Below are positions 39,518-42,473 of a stretch of 42,828 nt of DNA, in pieces. How positions within the stretch are numbered: the stretch's first letter is position 1; each line of letters begins with the position of its first letter. This DNA comes from Candidatus Woesearchaeota archaeon. GTDB taxonomy: Archaea > Nanobdellota > Nanobdellia > SCGC-AAA011-G17 > UBA489. Position numbers and translations under genes: made by a program. Where the stretch lies: positions 1 through 42,828 of the forward strand of contig JAGVZA010000017.1 in the NCBI GenBank assembly GCA_018302985.1, read 5' to 3'. A model generated the notes under the pieces. That model saw only the letters and a program-made list of their open reading frames with translations, was not told the DNA's origin and searched no databases.

Positions 39518-40000
39518 ATGGTAAATGTAGCCTCAAACAGACATACAGTCAAACAACAACGACGTGAAGAGCGTGAAAGAGTTCTTGCACAAGAACAAGA
39601 GGCTCATAAAATCCATCATCGCGCTAGAAAGGTCAAAAAATATACTTTCTGGGGAATAGGAATAATTGTAGTTGTTAGTCTGCTGGTATTTCTCATAAGC
39701 AGCGTTCAAAGCAAACCAGGCCCTTATGATGCTTTTGCTCAATGTTTAACTGAAAAAGGAGTAGTCATGTATGGAGCATATTGGTGTCCTCACTGCGCTA
39801 ACCAAAAGAAACTCTTTGGCTCTTCTTTCAAATATGTGACCTATGTCGAATGCGATGCTAAAGGTCCTGATCCACAACCTGAGCTTTGTTTGGCAAAGGG
39901 AGTCCAAAGCTATCCTACTTGGGAAATTAATGGAGAAACACAAAGCGGTGAAATGCCTTTACCAGTCCTAGCTGAGAAGAGCGGTTGTGTTCTACCCTAA
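39518..40000 (+). CDS. Membrane-anchored thioredoxin-like protein of the VKOR-partner type
   Basis: A 160-aa protein with a charged cytoplasmic N-terminus (1-41), one TM (43-62) and an external thioredoxin-like domain. The active site is GAYWCPHC (Cys90, Cys93), with the cis-Pro at 133 in SYPTWEINGE, and further cysteines at 76, 112, 124 and 157. The sequence around MYGAYWCPHCANQKKLF and ECDAKGPDPQPELC matches the thioredoxin domain that is fused to VKOR in many bacteria and plants. It therefore probably receives oxidising equivalents from a VKOR-like partner and forms disulfides in exported proteins. A VKOR-like gene lies 2 kb downstream. Confidence 0.88.
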   Translation: MVNVASNRHTVKQQRREERERVLAQEQEAHKIHHRARKVKKYTFWGIGIIVVVSLLVFLISSVQSKPGPYDAFAQCLTEKGVVMYGAYWCPHCANQKKLFGSSFKYVTYVECDAKGPDPQPELCLAKGVQSYPTWEINGETQSGEMPLPVLAEKSGCVLP

Positions 40001-41073: not shown

Positions 41074-41838
41074 ATGCATAAGAGAGGATTATTTACTGTT
41101 GTTGTTCTGTTGCTAGCAGCTTCTTTTTTAGCTTCTTTTCTTGACCCTAGTATAACTGGTGATGTAGTTCGCAGTTCACACACTAAATCTTATATTCCTA
41201 ATCAGCAACCAGTTTCTGTTGTTTCTTCTCCTTCACAAGAAAAAGTACTTTCTTCACTGCAAAGTCTAGTGCTGCAACAGTTTCCTGCTCTTACTCCTAC
41301 CAATACTTTTTCTGGCCAAAAAAGCAAAAGCACCAGCAGTTTTTTTTCTGGACTTATCTGCCCCTGGGAAAGCAGAACTTGTGAAGCCTTGGGATTTGTC
41401 AAAAAAGAAAACTACCCCATGACTCAAAACGGATTAACTACATGTGTACAACAAGCTTTAACTGCATGTCAACAAGCTTCCAAAAATGCTGCTATAGCAA
41501 AAGTTAAACTGTGCTCTCAAAATGCACAGGCAAGCTGCACCAATAAAAATGTACGAACTACTGATCGTATTCCTGAGAAATTTTGTTTCTTTAAACAGGC
41601 TTCAGATGTTACTGTGAACCCTTGTTTTTTAAATTCTATTCATGTCGAAGGCAGTGGCCAACATTGTTTTGCTTTATTTACAGAACGGGGAACTCTTCAA
41701 CAGGCTCTTCGTTGTCAACCCTCTACTAAAATTGCAGCCTTGCAACTCTCTTGCAGCGCTACTTATAAAGTTTTTTCTACACATTCTTGCAAAGTAGATT
41801 CTGTAATTAAATCCGCTTCTAGGACTTTAACTTATTAA
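41074..41838 (+). CDS. Exported cysteine-containing protein of unknown function
   Basis: A 254-aa protein with an N-terminal membrane segment (about 5-24) followed by SITGDVV, then a Ser/Gln-rich linker of about 65 residues and a globular domain with 12 cysteines, an even number. Most come in pairs spaced by 7-8 residues (CPWESRTC, CVQQALTAC, CSQNAQASC). No family is recognised. Its position between the thioredoxin-like gene and the VKOR-like gene suggests that it is a substrate or part of the disulfide-forming set. Confidence 0.65.
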   Translation: MHKRGLFTVVVLLLAASFLASFLDPSITGDVVRSSHTKSYIPNQQPVSVVSSPSQEKVLSSLQSLVLQQFPALTPTNTFSGQKSKSTSSFFSGLICPWESRTCEALGFVKKENYPMTQNGLTTCVQQALTACQQASKNAAIAKVKLCSQNAQASCTNKNVRTTDRIPEKFCFFKQASDVTVNPCFLNSIHVEGSGQHCFALFTERGTLQQALRCQPSTKIAALQLSCSATYKVFSTHSCKVDSVIKSASRTLTY

Positions 41839-41858: not shown

Positions 41859-41868
41859 TTATTTAAAC
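41859..41868 (+). promoter_or_regulatory. TATA box of the micro-gene/VKOR-like unit
   Basis: TTATTTAAAC centred 26 nt before the ATG at 41889. It supports the 23-codon frame as a leaderless first gene. Confidence 0.55.
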
Positions 41869-41888
41869 ACCATTATCTGCACAAATCT

Positions 41889-41960
41889 ATGCCAGGAAAA
41901 AAGAGTGGAAAAAAGTCTTCTGGAAAGAAAAAGAGACCAAATGTCTGTGAAGTTTGCTAA
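41889..41960 (+). CDS. 23-aa lysine-rich microprotein ending in CEVC
   Basis: A complete short frame from the ATG at 41889 to TAA at 41958-41960. The peptide starts MPGKKSGKKSSGKKKRPN and ends VCEVC, with ten lysines or arginines and a C-terminal CxxC. The ATG stands 26 nt behind a TATA box, the spacing of the leaderless genes of this window, so it would be the first translated unit of its transcript. The VKOR-like gene starts 12 nt after its stop, behind TTTTGAGGC. The tail could bind metal or undergo redox change; the basic part could bind RNA or ribosomes. A leader peptide is an alternative. Confidence 0.5.
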   Translation: MPGKKSGKKSSGKKKRPNVCEVC

Positions 41961-41972
41961 TTTTGAGGCATC

Positions 41973-42473
41973 ATGCACTTAGCACGTCGACTTCATTGGC
42001 TTAGAATAGTAGCTCTCATTGGTAGTCTTCTCTCTCTTCTTTTAACTTATACTTATGCTACTGGGAAAGGTTCTTTATGTACTTTAGGTGACTATTTTGT
42101 TTGTACCTTATCTGAAACTTCTTACGCTACTGTTGATGGCATCTTTCAGTTCTTCAGCTTAACTTTAGGCAATACTCTTCCCAGCGCTTCTGTAGGCATT
42201 CCCAATAGTTTTATATTTCTTTTAGGTTTTCTAATCTTACTTTTCTTTAGCTATAGATTCACTTCTTCGTCTCTCTCTGGATTAAAGATTACTTTTTATA
42301 TTTTAGCAGCCTATAGTGTTTTCTTAACGTATGCAGAGACTTATGTGTTGTATACTCTATCTCTCTTGGGAATTGTGATGAGTGTGCTTGTGTTTGCGAG
42401 CTTATGGTTATTGGTTGGACTGCACACCTTGGAACAAAAAAAATCAAAACAATCTCCACGAAAACGACGCTGA
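41973..42473 (+). CDS. VKOR-like membrane protein lacking the catalytic CxxC
   Basis: A 166-aa protein with four predicted TMs in the VKOR arrangement. After TM1 it has the loop pair C-x7-C (Cys36, Cys44 in LCTLGDYFVC), then S-x-x-S-Y-A, GIPNSFIFLLGF, and TM3-TM4 with FLTYAETYVLYTLSLLGIVMS. In working VKOR proteins the last block reads Y-x-x-x-x-C-x-x-C-x-x-S; here the two cysteines are Ser130 and Gly133. The quinone-side active site is therefore absent, although the shuttle cysteines remain. It may be a degenerate or specialised VKOR. It follows the 23-codon micro-gene by 12 nt. Confidence 0.62.
   Translation: MHLARRLHWLRIVALIGSLLSLLLTYTYATGKGSLCTLGDYFVCTLSETSYATVDGIFQFFSLTLGNTLPSASVGIPNSFIFLLGFLILLFFSYRFTSSSLSGLKITFYILAAYSVFLTYAETYVLYTLSLLGIVMSVLVFASLWLLVGLHTLEQKKSKQSPRKRR

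Follow-up and report, generated by a model that had tools for sequence, protein, structure and literature searches.

Does a 23-codon open reading frame (ORF) ending in a cysteine pair, located immediately upstream of a VKOR-like gene in a woesearchaeal genome, encode a protein, and what could such a peptide do beside membrane thiol-redox genes? DPANN archaea have some of the smallest genomes, and few of their redox or metal pathways have been characterised. The window analysed here, a stretch of 42,828 nucleotides, is contig 16 of genome G000 (1.04 Mb in 24 contigs, 88% complete), which, like all the genomes compared in this work, is metagenome-assembled.

A 23-codon frame upstream of a VKOR-like gene

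The frame occupies positions 41889 to 41960 of the forward strand, from an ATG to a TAA, and ends exactly 12 nt before the ATG (41973) of the VKOR-like gene, as a first-pass annotation of the window had placed it. Its 23-residue product, MPGKKSGKKSSGKKKRPNVCEVC, consists of a polybasic body followed by a C-terminal NVCEVC dithiol tail. Neither a signal nor a membrane segment is predicted in the peptide, and no Pfam or NCBIfam family matches it.

A TATA-like box of the leaderless promoter type (TTATTTAAA, 41859 to 41867, forward strand), recognised by sequence match, spans 30 to 22 nt 5′ of the micro-gene ATG, with its centre at about 26 nt. This spacing fits a leaderless archaeal start, and TTTAAATA is found at a similar distance 5′ of the homologue in genome G004. 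As the gene has a leader with a Shine-Dalgarno (SD) site in most relatives, the earlier description of the gene as leaderless must be limited to the branch of the window, in which the putative leaderless start is deduced from the promoter sequence rather than from a mapped transcript start. For the VKOR-like gene, inspection revealed an SD-like GAGG at 41965 to 41968 (forward strand), between the stop codon of the micro-gene and the VKOR ATG.

The first-pass annotation had also rightly described the peptide as basic, CxxC-ended and below the size limits of gene finders, and had suggested searching for it upstream of VKOR genes in relatives. The frame is indeed conserved in relatives, and the peptide was found upstream of VKOR in both G002 and G004. 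In G002, a congener, the peptide is identical: the 72 nt carry two synonymous third-position changes and no non-synonymous change, and the 12-nt spacer has diverged. G000 and G002 are the sole pair close enough for clean divergence counts. In G004, which belongs to another genus of the same family, MPGKGKKGKPTKKKKPNICDMC occupies the same slot, between a thioredoxin (Trx)-like gene and VKOR, despite the VKORs of the window and G004 being only 32% identical. In a looser pair (L174/L185), the differences are mostly non-synonymous outside the tail, indicating that the body evolves freely in that pair while the tail is fixed. A frame that is not conserved, or that drifts non-synonymously, had been named as the outcome that would argue against a gene; both were sought in relatives, and neither was found.

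A Lys-rich microprotein family in DPANN archaea

We gathered ORFs by their tail motif and de-duplicated them, and we define the family by a C-terminal [NKEH][VI]C[EDK][FYVM]C-COOH after a Lys-rich body. At least 65 distinct ORFs combine a polybasic body with an NVC[E/D][F/Y/V]C-COOH-type tail, in which the two cysteines and the V/I are demanded by the motif used for gathering. The other tail residues are N in 55, E in 57, and F or Y in 60 of the 65 members, with all synonymous codons in use. The tail consensus is KKNVCEFC-COOH, and the window peptide, ending in PNVCEVC, falls within the definition. Lengths are mostly 16 to 36 aa. The short members (n = 57) have a median length of 24 residues, a median net charge of +8 and no hydrophobic segment; an extra cysteine occurs in only one of them, and nearly all have few other metal ligands.

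A profile built from the 12 C-terminal residues of 55 members, with the genus of the window left out, ranked the micro-gene frame first among the 2005 open frames of the window (E 8e-7; runner-up, 0.06). Scanning the genomes of 84,980 species for KKNVC[ED]xxC followed by a stop codon yielded 43 stretches, 41 of which are in DPANN records (Woesearchaeota, Aenigmatarchaeota, Micrarchaeota, Parvarchaeota and "Nanoarchaeota"); the other two, in cyanobacteria, have no ORF start and are chance matches. As a Lys-rich body should not be built into the search, the pattern N-x-C-E-x-C-stop was applied to 371 genomes of the phylum, giving 33 matches versus 4 for the reversed pattern. A short ORF with a Lys-rich body was present in 25 of the 32 readable matches, and the free residue was mostly Phe, encoded by both codons. 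A variant tail pattern gave 14 matches in 103 genomes of the order versus 0 for the control; loose patterns, whose matches are mostly out-of-frame chance ones, were used for leads only. A strict SD site precedes 33 of the 65 members, against a background of 2.5% for the ATGs of that DNA as a whole, a count that the choice of start among in-frame ATGs tilts slightly toward SD starts.

Conservation, SD sites and taxonomic specificity led us to reject a chance ORF, and sequence comparison confirmed the 23-codon frame as a genuine gene of a DPANN microprotein family. A phage or mobile origin was likewise rejected, since viral contigs searched with the same pattern gave no match. The family was not found in Pfam or NCBIfam, and its tail strings had no match in a literature search of open-licence papers. 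This Lys-rich, CxxC-tailed family, present in several DPANN phyla, is apparently undescribed so far. DPANN genomes thus contain conserved micro-genes that annotation misses.

G000 has one member by pattern, per-genome totals being pattern-based lower bounds. In another genome, a second KKNVCEFC-stop stretch (L221; G023:C27:24431-24451) has no upstream start and is possibly a decayed copy. Elsewhere, a Lys-rich micro-ORF with a CxxC end, MAGKKKKKSVSKDDDESCPFC (L088:1053-1118, genome G177), lies directly before a P-type cation ATPase gene and after a DoxX-like gene; its tail differs from that of the family and is perhaps convergent.

Neighbouring thiol-redox genes

Besides the conservation of frame, tail and translation signals, comparison of the loci showed that the genes cluster with predicted membrane thiol-redox genes of the CcdA/DsbD-like and VKOR/Trx-like types. 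A CcdA/DsbD-like protein is encoded within 3 kb of 35 of the 65 members, on the same strand in 33 cases. Chance would put CcdA this close to about 0.5% of loci, given the 73 CcdA matches found in 103 genomes, each of about 0.85 Mb. VKOR/Trx-like genes lie within 3 kb in 14 of the 65 loci, and CcdA or a VKOR/Trx-like gene in 41, although the 65 loci are not phylogenetically independent samples. CcdA is encoded in 26 of the 28 genomes that have the micro-gene versus 32 of 75 others (Fisher p 3e-6, uncorrected for phylogeny). The neighbour resembles known families weakly (NCBIfam DsbD, E 0.005; SfLAP, 3e-9), and we take it to be CcdA from its NPC and LPCTG cysteines, on what is known of DsbD/CcdA. 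Also within 3 kb are genes for an ATP-cone protein (20/65 loci), a P-type ATPase (7), VIT1 (6) and a cupredoxin (3). In 24 of the 65 loci, some of them on short contigs, no CcdA or VKOR/Trx-like gene is found within 3 kb, and the members in G008 and G005, which belong to the window's own family, have no redox genes beside them. The micro-gene is also missing from many CcdA operons and is therefore not obligatory.

The window itself belongs to the loci with redox neighbours, with the VKOR-like gene downstream and a Trx-like gene 1.9 kb upstream. The latter (39518 to 40000, forward strand) encodes a membrane-anchored thioredoxin-like protein with a CPHC motif and a weak match to Thioredoxin (E 0.004), and its homologue lies directly 5′ of the micro-gene in G004. 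Between the two, on the forward strand (41074 to 41838), the translated sequence is that of a probable exported protein of 254 aa with an N-terminal hydrophobic segment and 12 cysteines, which has no significant Pfam or NCBIfam family. This gene is conserved 5′ of the micro-gene in G002, and its product may be a substrate or client of the disulfide system.

Another recurrent neighbour, found within 3 kb in 31 of the 65 loci, is a His/Cys-rich membrane protein that we call c1, apparently a family undescribed so far. c1 (L162:987-1772 and homologues) has three predicted helices and a beta domain, and adjoins CcdA in many DPANN genomes; in L174, it is fused to a multicopper-oxidase-like region. 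Alignment revealed an invariant H-x-H, C, H-x-H, H, C pattern, and c1 would be a natural metal-binding client of the thiol module. As c1 has no match among Pfam families or PDB folds, it does not settle the choice between redox and metal chemistry.

The slot before CcdA may also hold a longer protein. In L120, L121, L124 and L167, a protein of 44 to 52 aa has a head with a treble-clef-like CxxC...[FY]C-x3-C pattern, followed by the same tail. Fusion of the tail to such a head is seen in family f12, there in the slot before CcdA, and in Micrarchaeota and Aenigmatarchaeota; similar proteins are found in L158, L182 and L227. A model of the fused form (pLDDT 79) resembles LIM/TRASH fingers, including the TRASH finger of ZMYM5 (2das), at Foldseek E values above 0.3, and the heads match Pfam families below threshold only (YHS, E 0.12; zf-FCS, E 1.9; DUF2116, E 0.04). 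In L167 (3746-3948), a fused form and a plain micro-form stand in tandem directly 5′ of CcdA.

The VKOR-like protein of the window (166 aa; 41973 to 42473, forward strand) scores just below the Pfam cut-off for PF07884 (E 2e-5; 25.1 bits versus 27.5). Its alignment with eight VKORs bore out the first-pass statement that it has no CxxC. The loop cysteines C36 and C44 are kept and invariant in the alignment, and the active-site motif is replaced by SLLG in the VKORs of the window and G002, the seven others having C-I-x-C. This CxxC-less paralogue with loop cysteines was found in both genomes of the genus (in the window and L002). The peptide had been linked, speculatively, to the motif that the VKOR lacks. 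It would then donate its CxxC in trans, as might be suggested by the retention of the peptide 12 nt upstream of the gene in the very genus (g1; G000 and G002) whose VKOR lost the motif. Four observations make this highly improbable: the VKORs beside the peptide in G004, G045 and G018 carry CIFC, CcdA rather than VKOR is the companion of most family members, the peptide lacks an export signal whereas VKOR has its active site outside the cytoplasm, and G000 has a second VKOR (L191, contig 15) with a CxxC in a canonical VKOR-Trx-CcdA cluster. What survives of the proposed link is a tie to thiol redox genes in general, present in 41 of the 65 neighbourhoods.

Possible roles of the C-terminal dithiol

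We tentatively favour a reading, to which we give a little less than an even chance, in which the peptide is a cytosolic, membrane-surface dithiol partner of a CcdA/VKOR thiol-redox and metal-maturation module. As it has no signal or hydrophobic segment, the peptide would stay in the cytosol; its Lys-rich body would tether it to the partner or to the acidic surface of the membrane, and the free C-terminal CxxC would form a flexible dithiol arm that serves the membrane module. Most likely, electrons would pass, in either direction, between this dithiol and the CcdA-type cysteine pair (NPC/LPCTG), which would maintain metal-binding cysteine proteins outside the cytoplasm in the reduced state. 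In the window, the peptide accompanies the Trx-like/VKOR-like pair with the Cys-rich exported protein. CcdA/DsbD proteins are known to reduce disulfides of exported cysteine proteins, such as apo-cytochrome c (PMC9084895). With their thioredoxin-family partners (thioredoxin, CcmG), the peptide shares a CxxC dithiol encoded beside CcdA, an analogy of possible working only: unlike them, the family peptides are 16 to 36 aa long, have no signal and carry the CxxC at the C terminus, and the window peptide, having no thioredoxin fold, falls outside the thioredoxin/glutaredoxin superfamily.

We infer that the chemistry of the peptide is that of an electron shuttle or of a Cu/Zn carrier, two roles that are hard to tell apart by sequence; of the two, we consider the shuttle the likelier. 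As a carrier, the C-terminal CxxC would bind Cu(I) (or Zn/Hg) and pass the metal to a membrane protein or to a module that matures metalloproteins, CcdA keeping the acceptor cysteines reduced; the micro-form would then be a pared-down version of a full-length metallochaperone, represented by the TRASH-fused form. The fusion of the tail to a treble-clef head in the same slot before CcdA, the invariant His/Cys pattern of c1 and the VIT1, cupredoxin and P-type ATPase neighbours speak for such a role. So do the TRASH domains of CopM and MerH, metallochaperones of archaea (PMC7830388, PMC3600143) that are likewise small archaeal cysteine proteins, several relatives of the peptide bearing a TRASH-like head on the same tail. 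In contrast to CopM and MerH, the window peptide has no TRASH domain, the fused heads stay under Pfam and Foldseek significance, and CcdA/VKOR genes, not cop or mer genes, lie nearby. Moreover, short members have just two cysteines and no conserved His/Met ligand, and the one neighbouring ATPase that was tested is of the Cation_ATPase_N type, not a copper P1B pump. On balance, metal carriage appears unlikely, if clearly the strongest competitor of the dithiol partner.

A redox- or zinc-dependent regulator, whose polybasic body would bind nucleic acid and which would control the adjacent operon through a disulfide switch or a CxxC-zinc dimer, is a good deal less probable. It would account for the basic body and for the frequent position directly upstream of an operon to be controlled, and it has an archaeal precedent in Brz, a small zinc-finger protein whose gene lies immediately 5′ of bop (PMC2253796). 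Like Brz of Halobacterium and the C(P)XCG micro-proteins of Haloferax (e.g., HVO_0758), the peptides are archaeal, very small and equipped with cysteine pairs (PMC11241148, PMC10716476, PMC6562870, PMC2253796), and the gene for Brz adjoins the one that it affects. However, two C(P)XCG knuckles form the zinc finger of those proteins, whereas the window peptide has one CxxC, with no Gly after it, at the very C terminus of a polybasic chain, and the short form has no finger fold. In addition, the gene often lies downstream, after the ATP-cone gene, and 24 of the 65 members are elsewhere. We give almost no credence to a non-coding artefact or a leader peptide (an upstream ORF or cysteine attenuator) without a functional product. 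The frame is short and directly 5′ of a gene in the window, as a leader would be, but it is the amino acids and not the codons that are conserved, and a protein is favoured by the SD sites, the 41:2 taxonomic specificity, the cases downstream of operons and the fusion of the tail to a zinc-finger head. A leader peptide or RNA element was rejected on these fusions and downstream positions and on the lack of an Rfam match to the micro-gene.

The dithiol partner that we favour would be an accessory to a familiar kind of system, that of CcdA/VKOR thiol relays and archaeal cysteine micro-proteins, from a protein family that is apparently new. Proteins of 16 to 36 aa beside CcdA/VKOR operons in several DPANN phyla would represent an overlooked component of extracytoplasmic thiol redox or metal maturation. 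A broader proposal, possible though on the doubtful side, is that the peptides are fold-less "micro-redoxins" used DPANN-wide, each a polybasic leash with an NVCEFC dithiol that would donate cytosolic electrons (or Cu(I)) to CcdA/VKOR-type modules and, in minimal cells, take the part of a complete thioredoxin or metallochaperone. If so, they would rank with the smallest known proteins dedicated to thiol exchange. In thioredoxin reductase, Erv2 and class I ribonucleotide reductase, a flexible C-terminal Cys pair swings between partners; there the pair is the arm of a large enzyme, whereas here the arm is nearly the whole protein.
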